Shown here: positions 1-17,103 of the stretch, piece by piece | Layout of the letters: every line of letters begins with the position of its first letter | Position numbering within the stretch: the first letter of the stretch is position 1 | Assembly: GCA_947503245.1 (NCBI GenBank) | Contig: CANNCV010000001.1 | Span: 557,501-621,500 of the forward strand | DNA length: 64,000 nucleotides | From: an uncultured Sphingomonadaceae bacterium | GTDB taxonomy: Bacteria > Pseudomonadota > Alphaproteobacteria > Sphingomonadales > Sphingomonadaceae | Direction of reading: 5' to 3' | The notes under the pieces: model-generated | What the model was told of the DNA's origin: nothing | Databases searched by the model: none | Seen by the model: only the letters and a program-made list of their open reading frames with translations | Made by a program: the position numbers and the translations under genes

Positions 1-184
1 AGCTTTTGCGGGCGTTGATATAATTGTTCAATACCAGCTGGGCATGGGTAAGATTGCCGCCGCTCTTATCCTGGTCGACAAAACCGACCTGTATTTCGCG
101 CGGGCCAATGCCGGTGGATGCCAATTGTATGACCGCTTCTACGATCTTGGCTCCTGTGCCGCCTACGCCAATCAAGATATCCAT
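1..184 (-). CDS. Tubulin/FtsZ-like protein, N-terminal fragment (runs off left edge)
   Basis: Only the first 61 codons are in the window; the frame is open to base 1. The ATG at 184 is the only plausible start, as no in-frame start lies just upstream. The N-terminus reads MDILIGVGGTGAKIV, a hydrophobic strand followed by a GxGGTG loop like the first nucleotide-binding loop of FtsZ/tubulin-fold proteins. A second strand follows with GFVDQDKSGG. Bacterial tubulin-like proteins (Tubulin_2 type, FtsZ-like families) start this way, often beside vWA and membrane proteins as here. Assignment rests on about 60 residues plus context; another Rossmann-like nucleotide-binding protein is possible. It lies 69 bp downstream of the four-helix membrane protein gene on the same strand. 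Confidence 0.6.
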   Translation of the reverse strand, partial: MDILIGVGGTGAKIVEAVIQLASTGIGPREIQVGFVDQDKSGGNLTHAQLVLNNYINARKS

Positions 185-253
185 AAATTTTTCCGTTTCA
201 TGTCGCTATTGGACATTTGTTTCAGATAAACAGTTCTCATCCATGCCATCGCT

Positions 254-829
254 TTAAAGCGGTAATGATGGCTGCATAATATCCGGCGTTGCGAGCTTAG
301 TGCCGCCCGCATAGATAAGTGCAGACAATATAATCAAACCTGCTGGCCAACCCCAGGCCAATGCGGGCTGTAATTTTGTCGGCCAAAGACCAAAAAGCTC
401 AGTAAAATGGGCCAATGCGCCCAATATAATAATCAGAATCAGCATGATGACGATCAATTTCGTCCAATTCGGCCGCAAAGCCTTAAATTCATCTGGTGTG
501 CTGGCCTTTTCCGCCTCAATCGCTGCCTGAGCAACAAAAGCGATACCAAACAATAAGGGGATTACCATCGCAATGGCATACCAGTTGAGCAGGCTGCCCT
601 CGGCACGCTCTGCTTCACGTTCCAAAAACTGGTCGAGAGCGACAATATTTTCCTGAATCTGTTCTTCGGTCAGGCCATCGCCATTTTGCTCGGCCAGATT
701 TTGCTCATAGCGCTCAACAATCTCTGCATTAAGAGATTCGCTGCCGCTAACGGACAAGGATGCCAAAAAGCCAACGGCCAAGGTCACAACCAGCCATAGT
801 CCGAAATATTTGGCCAAAGCATTTACCAT
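254..829 (-). CDS. Four-helix membrane protein of the tubulin-like/vWA cluster
   Basis: 191 residues, not recognised as a named family. Predicted helices by eye: about 8-28, 84-105, 125-147 and 158-178. Between helices 1 and 2 lies an acidic, Glu/Gln-rich stretch (about 30-78) likely to be helical or coiled coil. It is 25 bp downstream of the vWA-like gene and 69 bp upstream of the tubulin-like gene, so the three are probably one transcription unit. Inference: a membrane anchor or scaffold for the cytoplasmic tubulin-like protein. No catalytic motif is visible. Confidence 0.75.
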   Translation of the reverse strand: MVNALAKYFGLWLVVTLAVGFLASLSVSGSESLNAEIVERYEQNLAEQNGDGLTEEQIQENIVALDQFLEREAERAEGSLLNWYAIAMVIPLLFGIAFVAQAAIEAEKASTPDEFKALRPNWTKLIVIMLILIIILGALAHFTELFGLWPTKLQPALAWGWPAGLIILSALIYAGGTKLATPDIMQPSLPL

Positions 830-854
830 TTACTCTTCTCCGTGATGGTCGGCA

Positions 855-2354
855 TTATTCGACCTCCAATACAAAATGCGATACAGAGCGTGTGACAGTC
901 TCGCGTCCGTTTTCAATCAATTCATTGGTGAGCATCCGTCGCAAAGGCTCCAGCCCAGGGGCGTTGATTTCTCTGCGGTTGCGCAAATTGGCAGTAATTT
1001 GCGCGCTCGACATAGACCAGCTGGTCATCCACGAAGCGGCAGGATGATCGGGAACAAGGCCAGCCTGACCGGCTGTCAGTTGGACAAGATAGGTGCCGGG
1101 ATTCCGTATTGACGACAGGTCGATAGTATCTGCGGTGAGAAGATAATTTATCTTCTGGCCCTTGGTCTTCCAACCGGATTTGGGCAATTCAGGGGCCGCT
1201 ACCCACATGGTGGAGAAGCATTCTGCGCTTTGCGCCTCACCTTCGGACAATTGCCATATACGTGAGGATTGGCGCGGCTCGTCACCAATAACTTCATAAG
1301 GTGCCACGGTCGCATTTGCTTCCAATGCTATCGACAATCCCTGCTTGGCATCATCATTTTCCGTCTTGTCCTTATCAAAATTGAGTTGCTGCAATGTCCC
1401 CAATTTACGGGCCAGCAAAGGATTGGTCGTAGCGCGTTTTGGGCGAAAGCCGGTGCGGGTGCCGCGCACTTTGGTCTGCGCATATTGTAAGCTGCCTGCA
1501 GATTGCCCGAACATGGCAAAGGCGCGCCGTGCGGATTCAGTCCCAGGGCCGCCAAGACCTTTGGTTTCGGAAGTGGACAGATAATCGTGAAATGATCTGA
1601 CATGCCTTGGTTGTCCGATCATCAACATAATTAAAGGCCTGCGCCTCAGCTTGGCGGGGTAGGTTTTTCCGGCATGATATATAGGGCCATCAAAAGGCAC
1701 ACGCAGGCCCAAAATTCCAATAGCCAGATTATCTTCGGTCACTGCCGTGCGTAGTTCGCCGCCAACAGATGCTTCAAAGTCATCCGCGGCCGACGTGTCG
1801 TCCAACATCAGATCGGTGACAATGATGGTCAATTGTTCAGTGCCATTTTTGGCATTTTCAGTGCGCTGTTTGGCGACCAGAGCCAAGACATCGGTTATCC
1901 GGGTTTCGGTGCCGGTATAAACGGCTGGTTTCCCATAGGCTTCAGGGTCGGGTAGTGGCTTTGTGCCGATTGTCTTGTCGAACCGGTAAAAATCGACCTG
2001 ACCTTTTTCAGCACCCTTATAAATGGCGCCGCTGCGGGTGTAATTTTTGGTCTCGGTGATGAAATTTGCAATGATGTTGGAACTGCCCTGCGAAGGATTA
2101 ACATATCCTCTCATACCGGCAGAAGCGTCAAGATAGACCGCAATGCGGCTAGGCGCATCTTTGATGGCTTTTTCGCGGTCCAGAAAGTCGGTAACCTGAT
2201 CGGGCAGACATACAGATGCTGTTTCAGGTGCGGCATCGTCTTTGCCGCTCATAAACAGAAAAAAATACGCCACAGCCAAGATCGCCAGCAAGGCAATTGC
2301 GCCCAGTGCGATTCCAATCATGTTGCCATTGGCCTTCTCGGTTTTGCGGACCAA
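855..2354 (-). CDS. Membrane-anchored von Willebrand factor A-like protein
   Basis: 499 residues from the TTG at 2354, chosen because a GAGGGAGAGAGAGG Shine-Dalgarno stretch precedes it; the frame stays open to another TTG at 2417. A single N-terminal membrane segment (about 12-35) is followed by a probable vWA domain. The strand IAVYLDASAGMRGY carries a MIDAS-like DxSxG, with Gly where DxSxS is usual. A second strand ends TIIVTDLMLDD, matching the later Asp of the fold. The C-terminal half has no recognised domain. The gene heads the minus-strand vWA/membrane/tubulin-like unit and diverges from the SH3-like protein gene. vWA domains usually mediate metal-dependent protein contacts, so an assembly role beside a tubulin-like protein is plausible but inferred. 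Confidence 0.7.
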   Translation of the reverse strand: MVRKTEKANGNMIGIALGAIALLAILAVAYFFLFMSGKDDAAPETASVCLPDQVTDFLDREKAIKDAPSRIAVYLDASAGMRGYVNPSQGSSNIIANFITETKNYTRSGAIYKGAEKGQVDFYRFDKTIGTKPLPDPEAYGKPAVYTGTETRITDVLALVAKQRTENAKNGTEQLTIIVTDLMLDDTSAADDFEASVGGELRTAVTEDNLAIGILGLRVPFDGPIYHAGKTYPAKLRRRPLIMLMIGQPRHVRSFHDYLSTSETKGLGGPGTESARRAFAMFGQSAGSLQYAQTKVRGTRTGFRPKRATTNPLLARKLGTLQQLNFDKDKTENDDAKQGLSIALEANATVAPYEVIGDEPRQSSRIWQLSEGEAQSAECFSTMWVAAPELPKSGWKTKGQKINYLLTADTIDLSSIRNPGTYLVQLTAGQAGLVPDHPAASWMTSWSMSSAQITANLRNRREINAPGLEPLRRMLTNELIENGRETVTRSVSHFVLEVE

Positions 2355-2497
2355 AGCCTCTCTCTCCCTCAAAATAATTGCTGGTCTTGCGCAACCTGAG
2401 CGATTGCATCTCCCCAATCACCATTTATCATATGGTAAACTAATCGATTCGCAAGCGATTTAATTTGACGAAGACTTGTGATGGGGGCGCAAGTTAT

Positions 2498-3919
2498 ATG
2501 GTAAATAATCAAAGAAAATTGACCATCATTGTCAATGATGGGCGCAAACTTATCAGGCTGCCCAATGAAAAAAAGTGGCGCATTGCGATTGATAATAAGC
2601 TTATCGATAGAAATACTATTGTCACTTGTGAATATGAGGGCGGAGATCGCAGCGATATTATGGCGCAGGACTGCCCAGAACTGGCAGTTTTACTTGATGA
2701 ATATCTAGGCCCGGAGCCTGAAGTTAATGATGCGCCGTCAGCTGAAACACCGCCTGAAACGCCAGATGATGCTTCTATCGAACAGACCGTTAACTTCACC
2801 ATAGTTGGCGATGATGATGCAGTGCCGCAAGGCGAAGATGCAGCTAAAGCGTCCCTTGCTGCTTCAGCCCCTATTGTGGCTCCACCAATCGTAACAGAAA
2901 CGCAATTGCCTCCTGTTGCTCCGCCTCCCCCACCGCCTGTCGAACCCGCCGTCGAACTTCCTGCTGAACCTGATCCACCCGAAGGTGTTGCCGAGCCTGT
3001 ACGCGGTGTTTCTCCTTTATTGGTGGCGCTTTGTATTGTTGTGGTTTGTGGCGGCATAGTGTGGTTAGCTATTGCCGTTCGCAGTGCGAATGATGGCGAG
3101 GCTGTGGTATATGAAGAGCCGGAACCTGAATCGGTTATTCGCTATGTATCTGCTAAGGCCAATTTGCGGGCCGAGGCAACGGGCACAAGCCGCGCAAGGG
3201 GCAGCATTGCACGCGGCGAAGAAGTGCAAGGCTATTATGTGCCCAGTATTGTTGATCCATCGATAAACTGGTTCCGCATCACCAGTGGTGAGCATGCAGG
3301 GAAATTCACCTATGGTCCCAATTTGGTGGAAAATGAAATGCCTGCAATTGAGACCTTTTATGCGGGCAAATACAGGGTCTTGGCCGATACGGTGCAACTT
3401 GCACAGCCAAGCGATACATCGCCCCAAAAAGGGTCAAAGACTGTCTCCATAGGCAGCGAATTGGAAGTTATGGGGACAGTGAATGGCAAATATGCTGAGA
3501 TATATAATGGTGCCGGAGATATTGGCTATATTGATTGGCGCTATTTTGGCGGACCAGGCGGCAAGGGGGAGCGTGCGACCATTCGCATTGTGAACACTTG
3601 TGATAGCAGCCAGAGCTTCTACTTTGCCTGGAAGAGAATAGCGGGGGATTGGCTTCTGGTTGATCGTTATATTAGTGCCAATAGCAGCTATAAACTCCGC
3701 TCACGTGAAGGAGAGGCGCTGACCAATACGTCAGAGCTATATTATTTGATTAGCCAGAGGCAGCGCCCACCTTTCAACACTATCAGCTATAGCGGCGCTG
3801 GCGAATATACATATCGCGGTGACAATAAAAGCTATAAACTCGCTAAAGCCTTACCGCGGCTAACCCCTCAAGGGGTTTATGAGGTAACCTTTGAGGGCGA
3901 TCTGTGCGGACCTGCATGA
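2498..3919 (+). CDS. Single-pass membrane protein: novel N-terminal module, Pro-rich linker, SH3-like repeats
   Basis: 473 residues from the ATG at 2498. This start, rather than an in-frame TTG at 2465, matches the N-terminus of the next gene. Residues about 1-75 form a module shared with that gene (IIVNDGRK, KKWRIAID, MAQDCPEL, LLDEYLGPEP). An acidic and proline-rich linker follows to about 170, with PVAPPPPPPVEPAVELP. One membrane segment lies at about 172-195. After it come two bacterial-SH3-like units, the first starting YVSAKANLRAEAT and the second ending AEIYNGAGDIGYIDW. A C-terminal beta-rich domain of about 115 residues is not recognised. The predicted topology puts the shared module in the cytoplasm and the SH3-like units in the periplasm. 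It diverges from the vWA gene and precedes the DUF805 protein gene, probably co-transcribed. Confidence 0.7.
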   Translation: MVNNQRKLTIIVNDGRKLIRLPNEKKWRIAIDNKLIDRNTIVTCEYEGGDRSDIMAQDCPELAVLLDEYLGPEPEVNDAPSAETPPETPDDASIEQTVNFTIVGDDDAVPQGEDAAKASLAASAPIVAPPIVTETQLPPVAPPPPPPVEPAVELPAEPDPPEGVAEPVRGVSPLLVALCIVVVCGGIVWLAIAVRSANDGEAVVYEEPEPESVIRYVSAKANLRAEATGTSRARGSIARGEEVQGYYVPSIVDPSINWFRITSGEHAGKFTYGPNLVENEMPAIETFYAGKYRVLADTVQLAQPSDTSPQKGSKTVSIGSELEVMGTVNGKYAEIYNGAGDIGYIDWRYFGGPGGKGERATIRIVNTCDSSQSFYFAWKRIAGDWLLVDRYISANSSYKLRSREGEALTNTSELYYLISQRQRPPFNTISYSGAGEYTYRGDNKSYKLAKALPRLTPQGVYEVTFEGDLCGPA

Positions 3920-3965
3920 TGGTATGTAACAGGCCAAACAATTATAGCGCGAAAAGGGAATGACA

Positions 3966-4958
3966 ATGTCTTCCTCGCATCAGCCTGTTATTATCGTGGA
4001 TGATGGCCAGCGTAAATATATGCTGTCCAATGCGCGCAAATGGCGGCGCGCTATTGATGCGCGGATGATCACATGGGAAACCCCTATTGAATATGAAGCG
4101 GAGGCCGATAACCGCATCAGCATGGCTGCTGGTGATTGCCCTGTTTTAACCGATATATTGCTGGAGATGCTGGGGCCGCGACCTATAATGCCTTCACCTA
4201 TTCCCACGCAGGAAGCCGAACAAGAAGACGAGCTTGGGATAGAGGCCGATAGGGTTCCTGACGCTGAACCTGATCAAGATATAAACGCTCCAGATGCCAA
4301 TATTTCTGAGACCAATAATCTGGATGATAACGCGCTAGCTGCACGTGCAGCCAATGATGCATTAACAGCAGATGATGAGTCCGATCTGGAGAAGCGCTTG
4401 GCTGCTCTTGAGCGCGAAGTCGACGCCGCGGCAGATAGTGTTCCGGCTGTTCGCAAATCGGGCCAAGGCCTATCGGGCGACAAAAAGGCACAGCGGGGAA
4501 ATACCACATCGCCTTCTCGCCCACCTGCTTATCAGCCAGCACGGCGCAAAAGCAGCGAACCCGCGCAGCGCCCTTGGGGCAAGAATGATATATTTGAAGA
4601 TCTGATGACGCCAAACGTAAAGCAGGGCGATAAATTGCCTGCTAAACGGCCAGTAACTATTCCGCCTGGAGAGGATAATGCCTTTTCATTCGCTGGCAGG
4701 ATTGGGCGCAGCACATTTTTTGCGCATAATGCCGGTGCGATTTTCATCTGGTTGATTCTGCTAGCTTGGCTAGGTGAAGATTCTTCTTGGCTGGGTATAG
4801 CGTCAATAGCCTTAATATGGGTGGCATTGGCAGCCAGTGTGAAGCGGTGCCGCGATATGGGGATCACTCCATGGTGGCTGCTCGTTGGTTTGGTGCCTGC
4901 TTTTGGCATTATACTTTTGCTGATTTTGCTGTTCTCTCCAACCAAAAACGGCAAATAA
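3966..4958 (+). CDS. DUF805 membrane protein with the shared N-terminal module
   Basis: 330 residues. The ATG at 3966 is preferred over the one at 3960 because AAAAGGG lies 7 bases before it. Residues about 1-75 repeat the module of the preceding gene (VIIVDDGQRKYML, RKWRRAID, MAAGDCPVL, LLEMLGPRP). A long acidic, low-complexity linker follows to about 230. The C-terminal 100 residues look like DUF805: FAGRIGRSTFF at its start, three hydrophobic helices, and the conserved VKRCRDMGITPWW. It converges with the M20 peptidase gene, stop to stop within about 16 bases. The module is likely cytoplasmic and tethered by the DUF805 helices. Function unknown. Confidence 0.75.
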   Translation: MSSSHQPVIIVDDGQRKYMLSNARKWRRAIDARMITWETPIEYEAEADNRISMAAGDCPVLTDILLEMLGPRPIMPSPIPTQEAEQEDELGIEADRVPDAEPDQDINAPDANISETNNLDDNALAARAANDALTADDESDLEKRLAALEREVDAAADSVPAVRKSGQGLSGDKKAQRGNTTSPSRPPAYQPARRKSSEPAQRPWGKNDIFEDLMTPNVKQGDKLPAKRPVTIPPGEDNAFSFAGRIGRSTFFAHNAGAIFIWLILLAWLGEDSSWLGIASIALIWVALAASVKRCRDMGITPWWLLVGLVPAFGIILLLILLFSPTKNGK

Positions 4959-4974
4959 GTACAATGTGCCGAGC

Positions 4975-6255
4975 TTAGTCGTTGGTTTCTGCCAAAATGG
5001 TCAACAGCAACACTTGCAGAGCAATATGGGTGTCTTTGTCCTCCCAGCTTTCATTGGGCGCATGGGCGTTACGGCTAATACCGCCACGGCCCAGAGTGAT
5101 GGCAGGGATGCCCAAGGATAGCGGAATATTGGCATCGGTTGATGAAGCAACCTGTTGCGGCTGCATCCCCAATTGACGTATCGCGCTCATGGCATTGGCC
5201 ACCAAGGCCGCATCCTCGGCATTGCTGCCAGCGGGGCGCCTGCCAACCGATTTGATCTCAACCGTGAGTGGGTCATTAGCGCTGCGCCGTGCATTCTCTA
5301 CCTCAAGCGCCTCGGCCATTGCGTTCTGAAAAACCCTATCAAGCGCTGCCAGCTTATCAGGATTGGCCGAGCGCATATCGACCTCCATCCAGCTGGTAAA
5401 GGGGATGGAATTGATCGACGTGCCGCCGCCGATCCGACCAACTGAAAATGTTGCTTTTGGTCCTTCTTGCGTTATCGGCGTTGCGGCCTCGGTAAAGCGC
5501 GTAATAGCTTCGGCCAGCGCCTGATGCGGATGGGCACGGCCAAAAGCCCCATAGCTATGACCGCCAGGGCCAGAAAATGTAACGCGGTAACGATGAGAGC
5601 CGACAGCTGTCGTAACCAATCGGCTAGCCCCGCCGCCATCAATGGCGATCATGCTGGAAATATTCGGGCCGCCTTCGGCAAAAAGTGCGCGCACCCCGCG
5701 CAAATCGCCTAGCCCTTCTTCACCGACCGATCCGACAAAAAGGATATCGCGCTGGGTCGTGATACCATGCAGTTCCATCACTTCTGCCAGTGCCAGCAGC
5801 GCAACCAGCCCTTGAGAATTGTCACCAATGCCCGGGGCAAAATATTGATTGCCTTCACGCCGCACGGTGACATCAGTTCCGGCAGGGAACACAGTATCCA
5901 GATGTGCGACAAGAGCCAATGCGCCGGTCTCTTTGCCTGTTCCTGCGCGGCGAGCGATGACATTGCCTGTGCTATCAATGGTGACATCAGTAAGGCCAAT
6001 ATCGCGCAGTCGCTGCGCAAAGTCGGCTGCGCGGGCTTCTTCGGCAAATGGCGGTGCTGGAATTTCGGTAATAGCGATCAGCCGCTCAATATTTCTCTCG
6101 CGCATATCTTCAAGCGATTGCAGCGCAGCACTCACCTTTGGCCGCGCTGAAATATTCGCAATACGCTGATCAGTATTTTGTGCTTGAAGCGGCGCCAAGG
6201 CAAGGCCAGCGAGAGTTGCAAAGATGATGAGTGGGCGAAATGGTAAAAGCGACAT
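4975..6255 (-). CDS. Secreted M20-family metallopeptidase
   Basis: 426 residues from the ATG at 6255, which has AAAGG 8 bases before it and begins a signal peptide (MSLLPFRPLIIF, cleavage near LQAQ). M20 dizinc hydrolase motifs are visible: VAHLDTVFPAG with the first metal His/Asp, GIGDNSQG with the bridging Asp, and GSVGEEGLGDLRG with the catalytic Glu pair. A lid/dimerisation segment (SHRYRVTFSGPGGHSYGAF) and a C-terminal metal His (RGGISRNAHAPNE) follow. It probably removes residues from peptides in the periplasm; the exact substrate (dipeptide, tripeptide or acyl amino acid) cannot be told. It lies 112 bp downstream of leuB on the same strand but is not obviously part of that pathway. Confidence 0.85.
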   Translation of the reverse strand: MSLLPFRPLIIFATLAGLALAPLQAQNTDQRIANISARPKVSAALQSLEDMRERNIERLIAITEIPAPPFAEEARAADFAQRLRDIGLTDVTIDSTGNVIARRAGTGKETGALALVAHLDTVFPAGTDVTVRREGNQYFAPGIGDNSQGLVALLALAEVMELHGITTQRDILFVGSVGEEGLGDLRGVRALFAEGGPNISSMIAIDGGGASRLVTTAVGSHRYRVTFSGPGGHSYGAFGRAHPHQALAEAITRFTEAATPITQEGPKATFSVGRIGGGTSINSIPFTSWMEVDMRSANPDKLAALDRVFQNAMAEALEVENARRSANDPLTVEIKSVGRRPAGSNAEDAALVANAMSAIRQLGMQPQQVASSTDANIPLSLGIPAITLGRGGISRNAHAPNESWEDKDTHIALQVLLLTILAETND

Positions 6256-6367
6256 GCACGAGCCTTTGGCGAATAATGTGGATGGTTTTGGAAACACTAG
6301 CCCATCGCCATGCTATGCCGCAAGCAGCATGACGGGCGCGCAGCAAGCAAATTTCGCTGGCGCTATT

Positions 6368-7414
6368 TTAGAGCTGGCCCGCAATTGCTGCGGCTGCGGC
6401 GCTGCAGCCTGTATCGCCGCCCAGATCATGCGTGCGCAGACCGGAGCCAAGAGCGCTTTGCACGGCAGCTTCAATTGCCGCGGCAGGTTCTTCCAAACCA
6501 AGACTATGACGCAGCATCATGGCAGCAGAGAGGATTGCGCCAATAGGGTTAGCAATATCCTGGCCTGCAATATCCGGTGCAGAGCCGTGAATGGGTTCGT
6601 AAAGGCCAGGGCCATTGGTTCCCAAAGATGCCGATGGCAACAGGCCGATCGAGCCGGAAATGACACTGGCTTCATCGCTCAAAATATCGCCGAACATATT
6701 TTCGGTCAGCATGACATCATAAGCTGACGGGTCGGTGATAAGCTTCATTGCCATGGAATCGACCAGCTGGTGCGTTAGTTCGACATCGGGAAACTCATCC
6801 CTGTGCAGAGTATTGACTGCATTGCGCCATAATCGGCTAGTGGCCAGCACATTGGCTTTGTCAACGCTGACCAACTTGCCGCTACGTGCCTGTGCAGCGG
6901 TGAAAGCAATGCGCGCAACCCGTTCCACTTCTGCGCGGCTATAGCGGCATAGGTCAGAGGCGTTTTCGTCGCTCTCTTCACGTTCGCCAAAATAAACGCC
7001 GCCGGTTAGTTCGCGCACGATCAGCATATCTGTGCCGCGCACACGCTCAGCCCGCAATGGGGAGAAATCCTCTAAGCCGGTCATTATTGCAACGGGCCGT
7101 AAATTGGCAAACACCTGCATTTGGGCGCGCAGGGATAGCAGGCCTTGTTCAGGTCGCACTGGTGCGCCATCATATTTTGGGTCGCCCACTGCGCCAAGAA
7201 AGACCGCATCGCTCGCCAAACAGGCAGAGAGCGTATCATCGGGCAATGATGTGCCAGTTGCATCAATCGCAGCTCCGCCAAACAGCTTCTCATTACAATG
7301 CAGATTAAGCGCAAATTTGGCAGCTACGGCATTCAATATTGTCTGCATTGCGCGCGTAACTTCGGGTCCGATACCGTCACCGGGCAGCAAGATAATATTA
7401 TGTTGATCGGTCAT
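6368..7414 (-). CDS. leuB: 3-isopropylmalate dehydrogenase
   Basis: 348 residues, full length for LeuB. It oxidises and decarboxylates 3-isopropylmalate with NAD to the precursor of 2-ketoisocaproate, third step of leucine synthesis in the cytoplasm. Motifs: LLPGDGIGPEV near the N-terminus, the substrate-binding Arg segment RERVRGTDMLIVRELTGG, and NMFGDILSDEAS for Mg and cofactor binding. The start ATG at 7414 overlaps the leuD stop by four bases (ATGA), implying translational coupling. Last leu gene of the cluster. Confidence 0.97.
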   Translation of the reverse strand: MTDQHNIILLPGDGIGPEVTRAMQTILNAVAAKFALNLHCNEKLFGGAAIDATGTSLPDDTLSACLASDAVFLGAVGDPKYDGAPVRPEQGLLSLRAQMQVFANLRPVAIMTGLEDFSPLRAERVRGTDMLIVRELTGGVYFGEREESDENASDLCRYSRAEVERVARIAFTAAQARSGKLVSVDKANVLATSRLWRNAVNTLHRDEFPDVELTHQLVDSMAMKLITDPSAYDVMLTENMFGDILSDEASVISGSIGLLPSASLGTNGPGLYEPIHGSAPDIAGQDIANPIGAILSAAMMLRHSLGLEEPAAAIEAAVQSALGSGLRTHDLGGDTGCSAAAAAIAGQL

Positions 7415-7995
7415 GATTCAGCTCTGATTTGTGCGATTTCGAAACGGCTAATAGCCTCACGCTGCGCCAGTAACGCGCCGAGCGGATCCACTCCGTCAAG
7501 CAAACATCGGCGGGCAAAACGCTCAATTGTAAAGTGGCAGCTTATGCCGTCTGCGCTAAGCTGCTCATTCTCCAGATCTACCGTGATGGACAGGCCGGGT
7601 TTGTCCAGCAATTGCGCGTGAATGTCAGCGGGCACTTGCACCGGCAGCAAACCGTTTTTCAGGGCGTTGCTGGTGAAAATATCGGCAATGTCAGAGGAGA
7701 TAACCACACGAAAACCAAAGTCCAGCAGGGCCCAAGGCGCATGTTCACGCGATGAACCGCAGCCAAAATTCGGACCAGCCACCAATATCTGATGGGTGGC
7801 CGTGTTAACATGGTTGAGCACATGATTGTCACGCAGCGCACCATTTTCACCGCGCCGCCAGTCATAAAAGGCTTTGTCGCCCAGTCCTGCGCTTTCCGTT
7901 GTGGTTAAAAAACGCGCTGGAATAATCTGATCAGTGTCGATATCGGCTTGCTCCAATATCACGCTTTTGGATGTCAGCTTGGTAAAAGGGGTCAT
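7411..7995 (-). CDS. leuD: 3-isopropylmalate dehydratase small subunit
   Basis: 194 residues. Small subunit of isopropylmalate isomerase, pairing with LeuC. Signature [18 protein letters not shown] near the N-terminus and [17 protein letters not shown], the swivelling-domain substrate loop. It overlaps both neighbours by four bases (leuC stop/leuD start and leuD stop/leuB start), giving tight coupling that suits a heterodimer. Confidence 0.97.
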
Positions 7996-9440
7996 GCCGC
8001 GCTGCTTTCTTCAGTCTGGTCACTATCGGCAAACTGGCCGGCAAATTGGCGTGGGTCAGCCAGATAGCCATTTACTGCGCATGCCGCAGCCGTAGCGGGG
8101 CTAGCCAGCATGGTGCGCACATCTTTGCCCTGCCGCCCTTTAAAATTGCGATTGGAAGTAGAAACGACCAGTTCGCCCGGTTGCCCTTTATCGCCGTTCA
8201 TGGCGATACACATGGAACAGCCCGGCTCGCGCCATTCCGCTCCAGCAGCAATAAATATACTGTGCAGTCCTTCGGCTTCAGCCTCAGCCTTGATAGCTTC
8301 TGAACCCGGGGCTACCAACATGGCGACATGATCTGCAACTTTGCGGCCTCGCAAGATATTTGCCGCAGCACGCAAATCGGTCAGTCGCGCATTAGTGCAG
8401 CTGCCGATAAATACTCGGTCAACGCGCACAGCATCAAAATCCTGCCCGGCCTGAAGCTGCATATAGTCCGCAGCCTCACGCGCATTGTCATTGGCCAGCG
8501 CAGGGTGCTGCCCGTTAATCGCCGCTGCTGCATCGGGGGAGACGCCATAGGTAATCATTGGTGTGATCGTACTGGCGTCAATCTCTATTTCCTGATCAAA
8601 ATGCGCATCATCATCGCTGTGCAATTGCTTCCACTGAGAGACAGCATCGGCCCAGTCTTTGGTTTTGGGTGCGCGTTCGCGACCTTCCAAAAAGGCAAAT
8701 GTTGTTTCATCAGGCGCAACCAGACCGACACGTGCACCAGCCTCTATTGACATGTTGCACAATGTCATACGCCCTTCCATATCCAGCGCTTCCACTGCGG
8801 GGCCAGCAAATTCCATAGCATGGCCCTGTCCGCCATCAGCACCGACATGGGCGATCATCGCCAGCGCCATATCCTTGGCAGAAACCCCTGGTTGCAACGC
8901 ACCAGTAAAGCGCACACGCATGGTTTTTGCTTTGCGCTGGAACAGGCATTGCGTCGCCAGCACATGGCCAACTTCTGTTGTGCCAATACCAAAGGCCAGT
9001 GCACCAAATGCGCCATGGGTGGAGGTATGGCTATCGCCGCACACAATCGTCTTGCCCGGCTGGGTCAGGCCCAATTCGGGGCCGATAACATGCACAATAC
9101 CGCGCCGGTGATCGCCTAGACCAAACAGCTCTATGCCATAATCGGCGCAATGGTCTTGCAGTGCCGCAACCTGCGTGGCGGCGTCTTCGGTTGCATAGGG
9201 TAGGCTGCCATCCTTATTGGCGGGCAGGGTCGGCACACTATGGTCCAAAGTGGCTTTGGTCAGATCAGGCCGCCGTACATCCAGACCGCGCTCTTTCAAA
9301 ACAGTAAAGGCTTGCGGTGAAGTGACTTCGTGCACCAGATGCAGATCGATATATAATATCGCAGGGCTGTCCTTGCCCTCTGGCGCTACCAGATGGGCAT
9401 CCCATAACTTGTCATATAGGGTTTGGGGAGTGTCAGTCAT
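7992..9440 (-). CDS. leuC: 3-isopropylmalate dehydratase large subunit
   Basis: 482 residues from the ATG at 9440 ([16 protein letters not shown]), chosen over an in-frame upstream start at 9485 because it fits the family N-terminus and has GGGAAA before it. Aconitase-superfamily 4Fe-4S enzyme converting 2- to 3-isopropylmalate with LeuD. Cluster cysteines are in [15 protein letters not shown] and [25 protein letters not shown] is the substrate loop. About 300 bp of repeat-rich DNA separate it from leuA upstream, so it may be expressed by read-through. Confidence 0.97.
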
Positions 9441-9491
9441 ATCGTTTCCCATCGCTGTTAGCCAACGGGACGCTTCTGGCGTCACGCATAG

Positions 9492-9595
9492 CCCTCTCTC
9501 CTTTAGGGGAGAGAGTTGGGAGAGGCGGTGTCATTCTTGGCGCTGCGTTATTGGATGGTCCCCACCCCCAACCCCCTCCCCTGAAGGGGCGGAGG
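9492..9595. repeat. Two GC-rich palindromes in the leuA-leuC gap
   Basis: CTCTCTCC (9494-9501) pairs with GGAGAGAG (9508-9515), and a second CCCC/GGGG-centred hairpin lies at 9575-9595. Read in any frame the region gives the Pro/Gly/Arg-rich pseudo-peptides typical of dispersed intergenic palindromes in proteobacteria. On the minus strand it follows leuA and could act as a transcript-end or processing structure, but there is no U-tract. Confidence 0.55.
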
Positions 9596-9605
9596 CGTTT
9601 TATTT

Positions 9606-9716
9606 GCGCTACTGCTTCGTTGCTTAAGCGCTGGAGACCGGACGGCAGGTCCGCAAGCGCGACTGCGCGCCGGGCCTTATTGGCCCGCCCCCTTGGAGGC
9701 GTTCGCACAAGCGAAC
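9606..9716 (-). repeat. Dispersed intergenic repeat, copy A
   Basis: On the minus strand, module 9648-9700 reads GCCTCCAAGGGGGCGG, a GGCC/GGCC dyad, GGCGCGC and then GCGCTTGCGGACC. A related module is at 21393-21455 on the plus strand (GCCTCCGAGGGGGCGG ... GGCGCGC ... GCGCTTGCGAACC). Both are flanked by a small GTTCGC/GCGAAC-type hairpin (9701-9716 here). A second shared piece, AAGCAACGAAGCAGTAG (9606-9626, minus), matches AAGTAGCGAAGCGGTAG at 21303 and 21338. A REP-like family is the simplest reading. Confidence 0.6.
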
Positions 9717-9740
9717 ATGCCGTGAAAGAAAAAATCCCAC

Positions 9741-11333
9741 TCATGCTGCCTTCTCGCGTCCTTGGGCCACCAAAGCGGCATTTACAGCAACAACAAAGGC
9801 GCCCACTGCGGCATAGGCCACATCGACTTCACGAATAGACCCTTCATATTCGGCTCCATCAATATTGATGACCGATTCGGCGCGCACATTGCGGTCGGCA
9901 CCATCGGCGACGTGATGGATGTCCAACGTGCAAATACGCCCGCCAACATCGGCAATGGCGCAGACGGCATGAAAGGCAGCGTCAAATGGCCCTTGACCTT
10001 CGCCAATGATGGTTTTGCTGGTGCCATCTTCATGCTCCATCACCACACGGGCATTGGGCTTATGATCGGCATCAATGGCATATTCCATCTCAACCTGACG
10101 CAAACGCCATGGACCAGCGCGGCCCGGCGGCATATTGGACCCTGTGACAAGGCGCACCAGATCATTATCGGTCACTTCGCGCTGTGTATCCGCCAAGGCT
10201 TTGAATTTTACAAAGAGCTCATCCAAACGGGCCTTATCGGCTGACAGGCCAATAGCCTCAATACGGGATTTCAGCGCGTGCTTGCCCGAATGCTTACCCA
10301 ATACAATGGAGTTGCTGGGCATGCCCACCGCTTCGGCGTCCATAATTTCATAAGTGCGTTTATCTGCCAGCACACCATGCTGGTGAATACCAGCCTCATG
10401 CGCAAAGGCGTTTTTGCCGACAATGGCTTTATTGCGAGCAATGGGCTGATGGGTCACTTGAGTCAGCGCGACACTGGTTGGGTAGAGGCGCGGGGTGTTG
10501 ATCTGTGTGGTCAGGCCAAAATGGTCGCGCCGCGTGGCCAGTGCCATCACGGCTTCTTCCAGCGAGCAATTGCCTGCCCGCTCGCCAATACCGTTTACCG
10601 CGCATTCAATCTGCCGCGCACCGCCACGCACTGCGGCCAGTGAGTTGGCAACCGCCAGACCCAGATCATCATGGCAATGGGTGGAGAAGGTAACGCCCGC
10701 AGCACTGGGCACTTCACTGGTCAGAAACGCGAACAGATTCTGGATTTCCTCCGGCGTAGTATAGCCCACAGTATCAGGGATATTGATGGTCGTTGCTCCG
10801 GCCTCAATCGCGGCCTGCACGGCCTCAACCAGATAGTCACGCTCTGTGCGGATGGCGTCTTCGGGTGAAAATTCGATATCGTCACAGGCCGACCGCGCAT
10901 GCGCGACCAGATCAGTGATCGCGGTTAATATCTGCGCTTTAGACATTTTCAGCTTGGCATCACGGTGCAGCGGGCTGGTGCCGATAAAGGTGTGGATGCG
11001 GCGGTTCGTTGCTGGGCTCGTCGCCTCGGCCGATGCATCAATATCGCGGATATTCAACCGGGCCAGTGAACATATGGTCGGGCTGTTGGCGCCATCGCCA
11101 ATTTCTTCTGCGACAGCTTTGACCGCAGCCATATCGCCGGGTGAGGCTGCGGCAAATCCGGCTTCGATAATGTCGACATTCAGACGCGCCAGTTCACGCG
11201 CCATAACCAGCTTGCCCGCTGTGGACATGGAAAAGCCGGGTGCTTGCTCGCCATCGCGCAAGGTGGTGTCAAAAATTTTGACATGGTCGCTGGCAGGGGT
11301 GGGTTCAGTCGAAACGGTTTGTTCGGGCGTCAT
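9741..11333 (-). CDS. leuA: 2-isopropylmalate synthase
   Basis: 530 residues from the ATG at 11333, with AAGGAG 6 bases before it (that motif lies inside a spurious upstream extension). Condenses acetyl-CoA and 2-ketoisovalerate, the committed step of leucine synthesis. Motifs: KIFDTTLRDGEQAPGFSM at the start of the HMGL-like TIM barrel, the THCHDDLGLAVANS metal-binding His pair, and GIGERAGNCSLEE. The C-terminal third (from about 395) fits the LeuA allosteric domain, so leucine feedback is expected. The start overlaps a Leu-rich small ORF by 29 bases in another frame. Confidence 0.97.
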   Translation of the reverse strand: MTPEQTVSTEPTPASDHVKIFDTTLRDGEQAPGFSMSTAGKLVMARELARLNVDIIEAGFAAASPGDMAAVKAVAEEIGDGANSPTICSLARLNIRDIDASAEATSPATNRRIHTFIGTSPLHRDAKLKMSKAQILTAITDLVAHARSACDDIEFSPEDAIRTERDYLVEAVQAAIEAGATTINIPDTVGYTTPEEIQNLFAFLTSEVPSAAGVTFSTHCHDDLGLAVANSLAAVRGGARQIECAVNGIGERAGNCSLEEAVMALATRRDHFGLTTQINTPRLYPTSVALTQVTHQPIARNKAIVGKNAFAHEAGIHQHGVLADKRTYEIMDAEAVGMPSNSIVLGKHSGKHALKSRIEAIGLSADKARLDELFVKFKALADTQREVTDNDLVRLVTGSNMPPGRAGPWRLRQVEMEYAIDADHKPNARVVMEHEDGTSKTIIGEGQGPFDAAFHAVCAIADVGGRICTLDIHHVADGADRNVRAESVINIDGAEYEGSIREVDVAYAAVGAFVVAVNAALVAQGREKAA

Positions 11334-11466
11334 GGGGCGCTCCTTGATCACGAATTTTCACAGGCACGCTTTTGCGCGCAGGGCTATTATTTGCTTTCAT
11401 TGCCAGATTTAGGCCCAATAGAAGCAGTAATCCAAGGGTTAATAGTGATAGCAGTGATAATGTCAT
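11305..11466 (-). CDS. Leucine-rich small ORF overlapping leuA (leader peptide or small membrane protein)
   Basis: 53 codons, starting ATG at 11466 with AAGGAG 6-7 bases upstream and ending TGA at 11305-11307 inside leuA. Thirteen of the first 21 residues are Leu; their codons include TTA three times and CTA four times, codons that look rare in the neighbouring genes. The C-terminal half is polar and basic (RKSVPVKIRDQ). Two readings fit: a leucine-sensing leader whose stalled ribosome controls the overlapping leuA site, or a one-helix membrane protein. It sits 48 bp after ilvN with no clear terminator between, so it is inside the transcription unit. I do not recognise a family. Confidence 0.5.
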   Translation of the reverse strand: MTLSLLSLLTLGLLLLLGLNLAMKANNSPARKSVPVKIRDQGAPHDARTNRFD

Positions 11467-11514
11467 CGTCTTCTCCTTGGGTTGGTTAGCCGGTTTGGTT
11501 CGTGAATATCGGGG

Positions 11515-12078
11515 TCAATTGGCTTCTGCGCCGCGCCGGATGCTCAATACGCCTGTGCGTGAGTTCTCGACCAATCCTAATGGGCGCATCAGGTCAATAA
11601 AGGCATTAACCTTGTCGCGTGTGCCGGTCACTTCAAATACAAAGCTGTTATGGGTGATATCAATGGGCCGGGCGCGGAAAATATCGGCGACCCGCATGGC
11701 TTCCAATCGTTGTTCACCGCTGCCCTCAACCTTGACCAGCGCCAGTTCACGCTCAATTGCGTCGCTTTCTGCCGTGACGTCGATAACCCGCCGAACCGGC
11801 ACCAGACGTTCCAATTGCGCCTTGATCTGGGAAATTTTTGTCGCCGTACCGCTGGTCACAATGGTGATGCGCGAACGGTGTTTCATCACATCGGTTTCAG
11901 CAACGGTCAGGCTTTCAATATTATAACCGCGTGCAGAGATCAGGCCAACCACACGGGCCAATACGCCTGGCTCATTGTCAACAATGGCTGCCAATATGCA
12001 TTCATAAATGGCCGGATCACCTGACGAAACCGGATAGACTGATTGTGATGGCGCGTTATCATTCGGGGTATCACTCAT
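11515..12078 (-). CDS. ilvN: Acetolactate synthase small (regulatory) subunit
   Basis: 187 residues (also called ilvH). Regulatory subunit that activates the catalytic subunit and confers valine feedback. An ACT domain lies at about 25-100: CILAAIVDNEPGVLARVVGL and SARGYNIESLTVAETD. The C-terminal ALS_ss_C region includes RADIF-like and FVFEVTGTRDKVNAFIDL segments. The start codon overlaps the stop of ilvB, implying coupled translation of the two subunits. Confidence 0.96.
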   Translation of the reverse strand: MSDTPNDNAPSQSVYPVSSGDPAIYECILAAIVDNEPGVLARVVGLISARGYNIESLTVAETDVMKHRSRITIVTSGTATKISQIKAQLERLVPVRRVIDVTAESDAIERELALVKVEGSGEQRLEAMRVADIFRARPIDITHNSFVFEVTGTRDKVNAFIDLMRPLGLVENSRTGVLSIRRGAEAN

Positions 12079-13904
12079 CAGACCAACACCTTGCCTGCTG
12101 CAGAAATTTCTTCGCCAGTAACCGCGCCGCCCAGCAACATGTCATTATGCGCCGCGCCTGATGGGATCATCGGAAAGACATTCTCTTCCTTGGTGACGCG
12201 GCAATCAAACAATACCGGCTTATCGCTTTTAATCATGGCGATGATTTTGTCGTCCAACTCATCTGGATGTTCTGCACAAAAGCCTTCGCCGCCATAAGCC
12301 TCTGCCAATTTGACAAAGTCAGGGAGAGATGCGGAATAGCTTTGTGCATAGCGCTTGTCATGCAGCAATTCCTGCCATTGGCGTACCATGCCCAGATATT
12401 CATTGTTCAGGATGAATATCTTGATCGGCAAGCCATATTGAATGGCAGCAGACATTTCCTGAATACACATTTGTACCGACGCATCACCGGCAATATCAAT
12501 GACCAGAGCATCGGGGTGCGCTTCCTGCACGCCAAGAGCAGCTGGCAGGCCATAGCCCATGGTGCCCAAGCCGCCCGACGTCATCCAGCGATTGGGCTCT
12601 TCAAAATGGAAATGCTGCGCAGCCCACATCTGATGCTGGCCCACTTCGGTGGTGATATAGGTGTCATAGCCCTTGGTCAGCTCATATAACCGTTCAACGG
12701 CATATTGTGGTTTGATCAGACTATCCGATTTTGCATAGGCAAAGCTGTTCTTGCCGCGCCAGCTAGCAATTTCTGCCCACCAGCCATCCAAACGGGCTGG
12801 GTCGCATGGGCTATCGACTTCGGTGCTTTGCCATTTTTGCAGCAATGCAGCCAAGATTTTGCCCGCATCGCCAATAACCGGCAGGTCAACCGGCACATTT
12901 TTGTTAATTGAGCTAGGGTCAATATCGATATGAATTTTCTTTGATCCGGGGGAGAAAGCATCAAGCCTTCCGGTTACCCGGTCATCAAAGCGCGCGCCGA
13001 TACAGACCATAAGGTCGCAATCATGCATCGCATTATTGGCTTCATAACTGCCATGCATACCCAGCATACCCAGCCATTGCCGATCGGATGCAGGGAAAGC
13101 GCCCAGCCCCATCAATGTAGAGGTTACAGGAACATTGCTGGCATGAGCAAGCGCACGCAATGTCTCGGACGCTCTTGGCCCTGCATTGATGACGCCGCCG
13201 CCTGTATAAAATACCGGTTTGCGCGCGCTGCGCAGCATATCCACCACCTTGGCGATACGCTCATCATCCATGAGCGGCTTGGCAACAGTTGGCCGCGCCA
13301 CCGCGTCCGCTTTGGCTGTGTAGGAGCCACTCTCAAACTGTACGTCTTTGGGAATGTCGATCAGCACTGGTCCGGGCCTGCCCTGTGTGGCGATATGGAA
13401 TGCCTCATGCACCACTCCGGCCAAACGATCAGCATGGTCGACCATATAATTATGCTTGGTGCAATTGCGGGTGATGCCGATCGTATCACATTCCTGAAAC
13501 GCATCCGTGCCGATTAACGGGCGCGCCACTTGCCCTGTAATACACACCAGAGGAATGGAATCGAGCAAGGCATCGGTCAGTCCGGTAACGGCATTGGTGG
13601 CCCCGGGGCCGGATGTAACCAGCACAATGCCGGGTTTGCCGGTGGAACGCGCATAGCCTTCAGCGGCATGTACTGCGCCCTGTTCGTGCCGCACCATGAT
13701 ATGCTTGATGGTGCCGCGCTTATCCAGCGCATCATAAATCGGCAGTACTGCACCGCCCGGATAGCCGAAAATTACCTCTACGCCCTGCTCTTCCAATGCA
13801 TCAAGCAGGAGGTCAGCTCCTGATTTCTGCACAGCACCAGCCTGCGTTGCAGCAGACTGGTCATCGCTTTGGCTTTGCGCGGGCGGAGGGGTAATCGCAT
13901 TCAT
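12078..13904 (-). CDS. ilvB: Acetolactate synthase large (catalytic) subunit
   Basis: 608 residues from the ATG at 13904 (MNAITPPPAQ); upstream in-frame starts would run back towards ilvC and lack a site. TPP- and FAD-dependent enzyme making acetolactate or acetohydroxybutyrate from pyruvate, common to Val, Leu and Ile. Motifs: VEVIFGYPGGAVLPIYDAL with the catalytic Glu of the following EQGAVHAAEGYAR, the FAD-domain segment, and the TPP-binding IAGDASVQM followed by ILNNEYLGMVRQWQ. The first 30 residues are a Gln/Ala/Ser-rich tail. Confidence 0.97.
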   Translation of the reverse strand: MNAITPPPAQSQSDDQSAATQAGAVQKSGADLLLDALEEQGVEVIFGYPGGAVLPIYDALDKRGTIKHIMVRHEQGAVHAAEGYARSTGKPGIVLVTSGPGATNAVTGLTDALLDSIPLVCITGQVARPLIGTDAFQECDTIGITRNCTKHNYMVDHADRLAGVVHEAFHIATQGRPGPVLIDIPKDVQFESGSYTAKADAVARPTVAKPLMDDERIAKVVDMLRSARKPVFYTGGGVINAGPRASETLRALAHASNVPVTSTLMGLGAFPASDRQWLGMLGMHGSYEANNAMHDCDLMVCIGARFDDRVTGRLDAFSPGSKKIHIDIDPSSINKNVPVDLPVIGDAGKILAALLQKWQSTEVDSPCDPARLDGWWAEIASWRGKNSFAYAKSDSLIKPQYAVERLYELTKGYDTYITTEVGQHQMWAAQHFHFEEPNRWMTSGGLGTMGYGLPAALGVQEAHPDALVIDIAGDASVQMCIQEMSAAIQYGLPIKIFILNNEYLGMVRQWQELLHDKRYAQSYSASLPDFVKLAEAYGGEGFCAEHPDELDDKIIAMIKSDKPVLFDCRVTKEENVFPMIPSGAAHNDMLLGGAVTGEEISAAGKVLV

Positions 13905-13960
13905 GGTTTCGACTCTCTTTGTCGGCATATCCGGGGTTTTGCGCATCCGGATAAGCCGGT

Positions 13961-14977
13961 TTAGCTGCCTTTGGTGTTTGCGCCGTCTTGCAACCACGGC
14001 ATGAGCGAGCGCAATTCCTTGCCAGTTTCCTCAATCGGGTGATTGAGATCAGTGCGCATCATCTGGTCATATTTCACTTTGCCGGTCTGATTTTCCAAAA
14101 TCCAGTTCTGGGCAAAAGTGCCGTTCTGAATGTCGGTCAGCACTTCGCGCATCCGGTTTTTGGTTTCATCATTGATGACGCGTGGGCCAGAAGTAAGATC
14201 GCCATAAGCCGCCGTTTCAGAGATGAAGTCATGCATTTTGGCAATGCCGCCTTCATAGAGCAGATCGACGATCAGCTTCAGCTCGTGCAGGCATTCATAA
14301 TAGGCGATTTCGGGGCGGTAACCGGCTTCGGTTAGCGTTTCAAAACCCTTCATCACCAATTCGGTAGCGCCGCCGCACAATACGGCCTGCTCACCGAACA
14401 AATCGGTTTCGGTTTCTTCGCGGAAGGTTGTTTCCAATGTGCCAGCGGTCGTTCCGCCAATCAAAGAGGCATAGGATAATGCCCGTGCTTTGGCGTTGCC
14501 AGTGGCATCCTGATGCACGGCAAACAGGCAGGGCACACCTCGACCACGCTCATATTCACGGCGGACCAGATCGCCCGGACCTTTGGGGGCGACCATGATG
14601 ACGTCAACATTCTCAGGCGGCTTGACGCGGCCATAAAGAATGGTGAAGCCATGCGCGAAAGAGATGCAATCGCCATCATTCAATGCCGGAGCAATGTCTT
14701 CCTCATAAATGCTCTCATGGCTCATATCGGGGGTCAGCATACAAATGACATTGGCTTGCTCTGCTGCCTCGCGCACTGGCGCCGTGGTCAGGCCGTCTGC
14801 TTTGGCTTGCGTGTCGCCTTTGCCGCCCGGACGTACGCCAACAATGACGTCACAACCGGAATTTTTCAGGTTGAGCGCATGGGCACGCCCCTGACTGCCA
14901 TAACCGATAACCGCCACTCTGCCCTGTTTCAGGACTGCGCCATCTGCATCTGAATCTGTATAAACCTTAATCGCCAT
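13961..14977 (-). CDS. ilvC: Ketol-acid reductoisomerase (class I)
   Basis: 338 residues, the short class I form. NADPH-dependent Mg enzyme that isomerises and reduces acetolactate or acetohydroxybutyrate. The Rossmann loop AVIGYGSQGRAHALNLKNSG is at about 22-41; metal-binding acidic residues are in DLFGEQAVLCGG and ECLHELKLIVDL. It lies 34 bp downstream of ilvD and 56 bp upstream of ilvB, same strand, consistent with one operon. Confidence 0.97.
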   Translation of the reverse strand: MAIKVYTDSDADGAVLKQGRVAVIGYGSQGRAHALNLKNSGCDVIVGVRPGGKGDTQAKADGLTTAPVREAAEQANVICMLTPDMSHESIYEEDIAPALNDGDCISFAHGFTILYGRVKPPENVDVIMVAPKGPGDLVRREYERGRGVPCLFAVHQDATGNAKARALSYASLIGGTTAGTLETTFREETETDLFGEQAVLCGGATELVMKGFETLTEAGYRPEIAYYECLHELKLIVDLLYEGGIAKMHDFISETAAYGDLTSGPRVINDETKNRMREVLTDIQNGTFAQNWILENQTGKVKYDQMMRTDLNHPIEETGKELRSLMPWLQDGANTKGS

Positions 14978-15011
14978 TATCTTCGCTTTCCTTATGGTAT
15001 CAATATCGTGT

Positions 15012-16676
15012 TTAGAAACTTTTTGACGTCACTGCGCCATGCGCCGCTGATGAGACGAGCCGGGCAAATTTGTCGAATGCTCCGCCCAGAGAATTGAGCG
15101 GACGTGGTACAAAGGCCGCGCGGCGCGCCTCCCAATCAATATCCGCATTGATGGTTCGCTCCTCGGCGTTGATAGTCAATATATCGCCCTCTTCAATCAG
15201 CGCGATAGGTCCGCCATTGGCAGCCTCTGGTGCGACATGACCAATGACAAAACCATGGGACGCGCCGGAGAAACGCCCATCTGTGATCAGTGCCACCTTG
15301 CCAGCCAGACCTTGTCCGGCAACGGCAGCAGTGACTGCCAGCATTTCGCGCATGCCCGGGCCGCCACGTGGGCCCTCATAGCGGATGATGACGACATCGC
15401 CTTCATTGATTGCACCTGATTGTACAGCCTTGAAAGCATCATCCTCACATTCATAAACCCTTGCTGGGCCGGTAAAGCTGCCATCATCATAACCAGCGGT
15501 TTTGAGCACTGCACCTTCGGGCGCCATATCGCCATATAAGATGCGCAGGCCGCCTGTGGCTTTGACGGGGGTATCAACCGGATAGACCACTTTTTGGTCA
15601 GGTGTCTCAGGCGCATCCTGCAATTCTTCGGCCAGTGTTTTGCCGCTTACCGTTGGCGCGTCAGTCAAGCGGCTGCCTTCTAATAAACGGCGGCCAAACA
15701 ATGCCATGCCGCCAGCATCATAAAGGTCGCGAGCAAGGAATTGCCCGCCGGGTTTTAGATCGGTGATGACCGGCGTTGTGCGCGATAATTCATCAAAAAT
15801 GTCTATGGTAAATGGCACATCTGCCTCGGCAGCGATGGCCGCAAGATGCAGCACGGCATTGGTCGAGCCGCCACTGGCAACAACTGCTGTTGCGGCATTG
15901 CGCAGGCTGGCCTCAGTCACAAAGTTGCGCGCTGTAATTTTGCGCTTGGCCAAAGCCGCAACCAAACGGCCACAGCGTTCGGCCTCAACAGCTTTATTGC
16001 CATCAACCGCTGGCGGATCACCCGCGCCCATAGGTGCCAGTCCCAAAAAGGCCAACGCCATGGCCATGGTGTTGGCAGTAAATTGTCCGCCACATGCACC
16101 TGCGCCCGGGCAGGCGGCACGTTCGATACGGTCCAATTCGCCATCATCAATATCGCCGCGACCATGGGCGCCAACAGCTTCAAAAACATCCTGAATAGAA
16201 AGGTCTTTGCCCTTGCTATTGCCCGGCAAAATGGTGCCGCCATAGAAAATCAGTCCAGGCACATCCATACGCGCCAATGCCATGGCTGCGGCAGGCAGGG
16301 TCTTGTCACAGCCCACCAATATCACGGCGGCGTCGAGTGAGTGGCCGCGCACGGCCAATTCGATAGAATCGGCAATCACTTCGCGCGAGATGAGAGAGGC
16401 ACGCATGCCTTCGCCGCCCATGGTAATGCCGTCGGATACCACGATAGTGTTGAAATCAATCGGTGTAGCGCCGCCTGCGCGGACACCCTGACGAATAGGC
16501 TCGGCCAGCGCATCAAGATGCATATTGCATGGTGTGACATTCGACCATGTATTGACCACAGCGATCATTGGCTGGGCAAAATCCTTGTCGCCATAGCCGA
16601 CCGCACGCAACATCGCGCGCGCTGGTGCCTTGGACGGGCCTTTTGTAATGGCATCTGATCTTTTGCTGGTTGTCAT
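15012..16676 (-). CDS. ilvD: Dihydroxy-acid dehydratase
   Basis: 554 residues. Iron-sulfur dehydratase converting dihydroxy acids to 2-keto acids for Val/Leu and Ile. Cluster cysteines are in [10 protein letters not shown] and [20 protein letters not shown]; the catalytic Ser lies in [21 protein letters not shown]. First structural gene after the attenuator at 16747-16889, about 70 bp downstream of its terminator. Confidence 0.97.
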
Positions 16677-16746
16677 TTGCTGCTCGGCTCTTTCTTCATT
16701 TCCTGGGCACTATCTTAACATCGGTCTTCAGGTCATTCGGGACATT

Positions 16747-16779
16747 AAAAAACCCGCTTACCATTTGGTGGGAAGCGGG
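16747..16779 (-). terminator. Attenuator terminator upstream of ilvD
   Basis: On the minus strand CCCGCTT (16779-16773) pairs with AAGCGGG (16759-16753), followed directly by six T (16752-16747). It lies between the ILV-rich leader peptide and ilvD, so it can only act on that transcript as a conditional terminator. Confidence 0.88.
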
Positions 16780-16808
16780 CGGTGGTGGATCAGGCTATTT
16801 ACTATTGC

Positions 16809-16889
16809 TTAGAATGCCTTCTCTCCGACCGCCCGTTGCACGAGCAGCACGTTGATAATTTCTAGCACTAGGACAGCGATATTGGTCAT
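16809..16889 (-). CDS. ilv operon leader peptide
   Basis: 26 residues, MTNIAVLVLEIINVLLVQRA and six more, ending TAA at 16809-16811. Twelve of the 26 residues are Ile, Val or Leu, concentrated at residues 4-17. It is followed by a mutually exclusive antiterminator/terminator pair and then ilvD. The Shine-Dalgarno sequence is weak. The peptide itself is probably non-functional; its translation is the sensor. Confidence 0.82.
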   Translation of the reverse strand: MTNIAVLVLEIINVLLVQRAVGEKAF

Positions 16890-17103
16890 TACTGTTTCGA
16901 TTAACCCTGTTTACGTTGTTTGCCCCTATGCGCAGAAACCACCGACAATGCAACAAGAAAACGCGATTCTTTGCAAAAAAACGTAATATTATTCCAAATT
17001 TTGCATTTTTAGAGCAACTAATTTTGGAACTTTGCGTATTTTGCACTCGCATTTGGTGGCTTTGCCGATATATCCGCGCACATGAAAGGCGAATGCTAAA
17101 GAC

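Follow-up and report, generated by a model that had tools for sequence, protein, structure and literature searches.

The window, a stretch of 64,000 nucleotides from an uncultured Sphingomonadaceae bacterium, opens with the start of a gene for a tubulin-like protein next to two genes for predicted membrane proteins, which raises the question of the partners with which this protein is encoded and of what they could do together. The initial annotation had placed a vWA-like protein, a four-helix membrane protein and a tubulin-like protein of the GVGGTG type on the minus strand, and these open reading frames were recovered at the same positions and in the same orientation.

Organization of the operon

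The edge of the window cuts the operon, and the remaining genes were obtained from the same contig beyond it (L002, Table 1). The tubulin-like open reading frame is complete there, without an internal stop. The frame encoding an actin-like ATPase begins 19 nt past it, and that of a bitopic membrane protein follows after a further 10 nt on the same strand. Read from the vWA-like gene, the order on the minus strand is vWA-like, four-helix (4-TM), tubulin-like, actin-like and bitopic protein; the intergenic gaps of 10–69 nt point to a single operon. The three-gene set of the initial annotation is thus real and incomplete: the genes for the actin-like ATPase and for the bitopic membrane protein lie upstream of the window, out of its reader's sight, and two divergently oriented genes inside the window, here termed adaptors, had been left unlinked to the operon. 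The vWA-like gene has a GTG start after GAGGGAGAG, and its open reading frame extends to 2417 with a TTG start. The divergent intergenic region holds two sigma-70-like motifs (1.0 expected by chance), with a single, weak match on the operon strand; no match was found in an Rfam search of window positions 1–12000. In plasmid records the genes of the cassette are mostly annotated as hypothetical proteins.

Table 1. Positions of the operon, the divergent region and the adaptor genes.
Feature	Window position	Position in L002	Strand	Description
vWA-like protein	855..2354		(-)	499 aa; N-terminal membrane anchor, predicted periplasmic vWA-like domain
Four-helix membrane protein	254..829		(-)	191 aa; 4 predicted TM
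Tubulin-like protein (Tubulin_2/FtsZl1)	1..184 (gene start; first 61 residues at 2-184)	17099-18685 (full gene)	(-)	528 aa
Actin-like ATPase	-5012 to -1422	13489-17079	(-)	1196 aa
Bitopic membrane protein	-6399 to -5023	12102-13478	(-)	458 aa
Divergent intergenic region	2355..2497		.	Between operon and adaptor 1
Adaptor 1	2498..3919 (ORF opens 2465)		(+)	System-specific N-terminal domain, Pro-rich linker, one TM, SH3-like domain
Adaptor 2	3960..4958		(+)	Same N-terminal domain and DUF805 membrane domain

The tubulin-like protein

The tubulin-like protein matched the Pfam family Tubulin_2 (PF13809) with 42.6 bits (cut-off 27), as did 29 of 30 aligned homologous sequences (E≤0.01). Two nucleotide-binding loops are largely invariant across the family, T1 (GVGGTGAK, at residue 6) and T4 (GSVFGGTGAAG, at 185). 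A direct sequence search of the PDB gave no match, and the alignment profile yielded only a weak match to CetZ (E 0.53) among noise. The structure was assessed on a model of the L022 homologue, which is 57% identical to the protein of the window's genome (pLDDT 85.9, pTM 0.91). Residues 1–356 of this model matched FtsZ (Z 17.4, rmsd 3.0, 199 residues aligned) and also CetZ, tubulin and PhuZ; Foldseek by itself gave weaker results, namely six matches at E<0.001, all of them tubulins. The fold predicted for the relative, together with loops T1 and T4, thus assigns the protein to the tubulin/FtsZ superfamily, and the expectation of the initial annotation that the full protein would have a tubulin fold is borne out to this extent.

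The C-terminal ∼170 residues are helical and were left unmatched to FtsZ; past residue ∼350 the L022 model consists of separate helices and lacks the long coiled coil that the majority of FtsZl1 proteins, though not all, carry behind the FtsZ-like domain. The FtsZ C-terminal domain is absent from the protein of the window's genome (Pfam, E≤1) and from all 30 aligned sequences (E≤0.01). A W-x-D-[IL]-P motif is conserved at 337–341, the placement of which on the T7 loop depends on the coordinates of the model. With a C-terminal part unmatched to FtsZ and a T7 catalytic acid without assignment, filaments of the FtsZ type are not assured. A canonical FtsZ is encoded once elsewhere in the window's genome, in agreement with the earlier statement that the operon is not a standard divisome set, and no other Tubulin_2 match was found in this genome. 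A different, long Tubulin_2 protein of 1530 aa is encoded in L055, where it has no actin-like neighbor.

The actin-like ATPase

No Pfam family scored above its cut-off in the actin-like protein or in five diverged homologues; the FtsA model reached 13.6 bits (cut-off 31.8). The two phosphate motifs, AIDFGTTNT at 610 (phosphate-1) and LDIGGGTTE at 837 (phosphate-2), are conserved in the family, and the alignment profile matched MreB in the PDB (E 8.8e-7), followed by FtsA and DnaK-type chaperones. A model was again available for the L022 homologue (51% identical to the protein of the window's genome; pLDDT 80.3, pTM 0.69), of which residues 604–1052 resembled FtsA (Z 19.3, rmsd 3.1, 264 aligned), MreB (18.7), MamK (18.7) and DnaK (18.6). 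The actin fold of the relative's model and the phosphate-1 and phosphate-2 motifs place the protein in the actin/Hsp70 superfamily. Since the likeness to DnaK is about equal to that to FtsA and MreB, the core might alternatively act as a chaperone-like switch. An SrfB-type Hsp70 was considered for these proteins and discarded, as Pfam scans gave no SrfB match. In one cyanobacterial MAG (L042:4017-7310, plus strand) the actin-like gene lies in two frames, which reflects either a sequencing error or a real break.

Membrane, exported and adaptor proteins

The vWA-like protein has one predicted TM segment at its N-terminus in the window, and 16 of 24 aligned sequences carry a lipobox; from these features the protein is predicted to be exported. 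The name refers to a motif and not to a family match, namely a DxSxS-type loop (DxSxS in 18 of the 24 sequences, DxSxG in the window), reminiscent of MIDAS, and a conserved D past a hydrophobic strand. No vWA family in Pfam matched the protein, nor did the vWA-like profile match the PDB. The four-helix protein, whose homologues have 3–5 TM segments, ends in a short conserved C-terminal tail (PSLPL in the window, SVPL or VVPG elsewhere). For the bitopic protein two TM segments and a cytoplasmic C-terminal domain are predicted.

The adaptors share an N-terminal domain of ∼65 residues, found in 27 proteins from 16 loci, including the two window genes (i-E 2e-28 for adaptor 1 and 3e-28 for adaptor 2). 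These E-values are generous, owing to a small search set and proline-rich tails, and the domain is clear in the listed sequences. All the proteins with this domain adjoin the cassette, and they were found in Alphaproteobacteria only. C-terminal to the domain a TM segment is followed by SH3_3, TonB_C (E 8e-16 and 3e-18) or DUF805. In adaptor 1 the TM segment lies at residue 185 of the ORF and the SH3_3 match (E 0.029) falls below the Pfam cut-off, which is exceeded in the homologues of L020, L025 and L026; in adaptor 2 DUF805 was matched with E 1.6e-11.

Conservation and spread of the cassette

A scan of genome contigs identified 30 loci. Gene order was compared across the 35 loci in which the tubulin-like gene could be read (the locus itself, 29 from the contig scan, two from relatives and three records from a plasmid collection). 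The actin-like gene lies directly downstream of the tubulin-like gene on the same strand, and the gene for a 3–5-TM protein directly upstream, in 35/35 loci; many of these trained the profiles, while profiles built from six sequences had earlier recovered most of the order, and copies from Bacteroidota and from plasmids were outside the training. The vWA-like gene is found upstream of the tubulin-like gene in 32/35; of the other three loci, two lie on truncated contigs and one has the gene on the opposite strand. The co-occurrence of the three genes in other genomes, on which the initial annotation had made its reading depend, is therefore confirmed by an order that is kept across related loci.

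Of the 396 genomes of the order, 7 have the tubulin-like gene, and exactly these 7 also have the actin-like gene (3e-15 by chance, ignoring phylogeny). A mirror-tree comparison of the two proteins over 21 loci gave r = 0.98, a value to which the common inheritance of the whole operon also contributes. In the spirochaete MAG contig L048 both proteins are encoded in one frame, joined by a repetitive linker; this single contig, which ends within the actin-like part, is the evidence for a fusion. The pairing of the two proteins is thus supported by the adjacency of their genes, by their perfect co-occurrence and parallel evolution, and by a fusion found in nature.

The hosts are Alphaproteobacteria, Acidobacteriota, Cyanobacteria, Firmicutes, Bacteroidota and one spirochaete. 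The system, which had been presented as a sphingomonad version, is no speciality of the sphingomonads: at least six bacterial phyla have it. The tubulin-like gene is absent from two genomes of the same genus. An empty-site comparison in two same-genus genomes was uninformative, since the peptidase and leu/ilv genes that flank the cassette have diverged there or lie elsewhere. The copies are mostly chromosomal, with some on cyanobacterial plasmids. The patchy distribution and the plasmid copies are in line with a horizontal spread of the cassette. A MAG labeled Euryarchaeota (L038, NYST01000060.1) holds a cassette with cyanobacterium-like sequences and may contain a mis-binned contig.

Relation to known systems

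FtsZl1 proteins were described together with vWA proteins, P-loop GTPases, kinases and OmpA proteins, and membrane remodeling was proposed as their function (Makarova & Koonin 2010, PMC2875224). The present cassette resembles them in its Tubulin_2 family, in the vWA and TM proteins of the operon, in the canonical FtsZ encoded elsewhere and in its patchy spread; the Tubulin_2 match and that paper bear out the link to FtsZ-like/vWA systems drawn in the initial annotation. It differs in that its protein of ∼525 aa does not have the long coiled coil typical of FtsZl1 proteins in their majority, in its fixed actin-like partner, and in that genes for a P-loop GTPase, a protein kinase or an OmpA protein are lacking from the cassette. 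The main text of PMC2875224 names no actin-like, MreB, FtsA or Hsp70 partner, and Tubulin_2 was set aside as too divergent in a 2023 study (PMC9871819). No description of the tubulin-like/actin-like pair or of the adaptors was found in the literature outside supplements, preprints and most subscription journals. The cassette is of the known Tubulin_2/vWA kind, extended by an actin-family partner that has apparently gone undescribed.

FtsZ and FtsA likewise bring a tubulin-family GTPase and an actin-family ATPase together at the membrane, but the present cassette is presumably not for division, its actin-like protein is ∼1190 aa long with an extra part of 600 residues, and it includes dedicated vWA, 4-TM and adaptor proteins. 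MreB and MamK share the actin fold (same Z-score for each), whereas the cassette protein is far larger and has a constant tubulin-like neighbor. In the DO-GTPase/GAP1-N2 systems tubulin and vWA membrane proteins also occur, with HSP70 in another subset; tubulin and HSP70 are non-overlapping themes of these systems (Kaur et al. 2020, PMC7159879), whereas the tubulin-like and actin/Hsp70-like proteins are constant neighbors in the cassette. The defining GAP1-N2 family (PF20013) occurs neither in the window's genome nor in five relatives, and membership of this group was rejected; matches in Firmicute genomes seem to be on other contigs.

A possible mode of action and its alternatives

We give about an even chance to the reading that the products of the operon form an accessory cytoskeletal complex, horizontally spread and seated in the inner membrane, which has a dedicated tubulin-like/actin-like pair at its core and works like FtsZ–FtsA, though not for division. 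It builds on computed gene order, co-occurrence, folds, nucleotide motifs, predicted topology and adaptor domains, and the FtsZ–FtsA analogy stands for a possible way of working and not for family membership. The tubulin-like GTPase would assemble in the cytoplasm, and the 1196-aa actin-like ATPase would bind it and either control it or co-polymerize with it. The 4-TM and bitopic proteins, as judged from their predicted topology, may tether the pair to the membrane. The vWA-like domain, predicted to lie outside the membrane on a lipoprotein or TM anchor, could sense or grip a ligand. The modular adaptors with their common cytoplasmic domain would connect the complex to putative partners, SH3 to peptidoglycan, TonB_C to outer-membrane receptors and DUF805 to other membrane modules, and could pass force to the wall or the outer membrane. 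NTP-driven assembly would then bring about local envelope remodeling or tension upon an external cue.

More tentatively, at somewhat below an even chance, the cassette may be the second conserved bacterial tubulin–actin pair after FtsZ–FtsA: a mobile two-NTPase cytoskeleton across several phyla, with dedicated proteins at the inner membrane, swappable SH3/TonB adaptors gearing it to the wall and the outer membrane, and a giant actin-family ATPase not previously described. It would be a new case of the tubulin and actin families coming to work together. Tubulin_2/FtsZl1 proteins have, since 2010, been treated from sequence only, with membrane remodeling as a proposal; now that an actin-family partner is a fixed part of the cassette, with membrane and exported proteins in constant order, this loose idea becomes a complex that is defined and can be tested.

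The cassette could instead be an NTP-dependent switch that acts in conflict or stress, a role put forward for GTPase-centered systems that include tubulin, HSP70 and vWA components (Kaur et al. 2020, PMC7159879). The patchy spread with plasmid copies, the DnaK likeness of the actin-like core (Z 18.6) and the vWA and tubulin themes of that work fit such a switch; the missing GAP1-N2 and a cassette without a toxin or nuclease effector do not, and the GTPase systems of PMC7159879 are described there as nearly absent from cyanobacteria, several of which carry the cassette. PADLOC gave no match for any window component and none that was convincing for homologues, by which a defence system was rejected; a phage origin was dismissed as well, no viral homologues being found by tblastn in phages or in IMG/VR. 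Overall, we regard a conflict or stress switch as unlikely.

Envelope transport or energy transduction, in which the nucleotide-driven pair would move or gate membrane proteins while TonB_C and SH3 adaptors transmit force to the outer membrane or the wall for the import or export of a substrate, appears to us quite improbable. TonB_C and SH3 domains are indeed fused to the adaptor domain, the vWA lipoprotein is predicted to be exported, and transport was raised for FtsZl1 by a reviewer of Makarova & Koonin (PMC2875224); yet no porin, periplasmic binding protein or channel was detected as a conserved part of the cassette, and the adaptors were seen in Alphaproteobacteria only. Filaments that move DNA, as in TubZR or ParM, would fit the copies on plasmids. 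Both the tubulin and the actin family serve plasmid partition, but the mainly chromosomal location, the membrane and exported partners fixed in the cassette and the lack of a recognized DNA-binding adaptor gene argue against a partition module, which we hold to be very improbable.

Neighboring features

Past the last operon gene, after 96 nt, lies a gene for a right-handed beta-helix-like protein of 498 aa (L002:10509-12005, minus strand; window about -7992 to -6496), which is not conserved alongside the cassette. Convergent to the operon is an open reading frame of 3243 aa with an autotransporter-like repetitive passenger (L002:692-10423, plus strand; window about -17809 to -8078). On the other side the cassette is flanked by leuB, leuD, leuC, leuA, ilvH, ilvI, ilvC and ilvD-like genes of leucine and isoleucine-valine biosynthesis (window 6368-15998, minus strand), identified by eye. 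Between the leuC-like and leuA-like genes a palindromic element of ∼105 bp (window 9488-9593) is present as a single copy in the window; it has dozens of matches, on both strands and with 72–92% identity, in two genomes of the same genus, and is predicted to form a strong hairpin (−55.5 kcal/mol).
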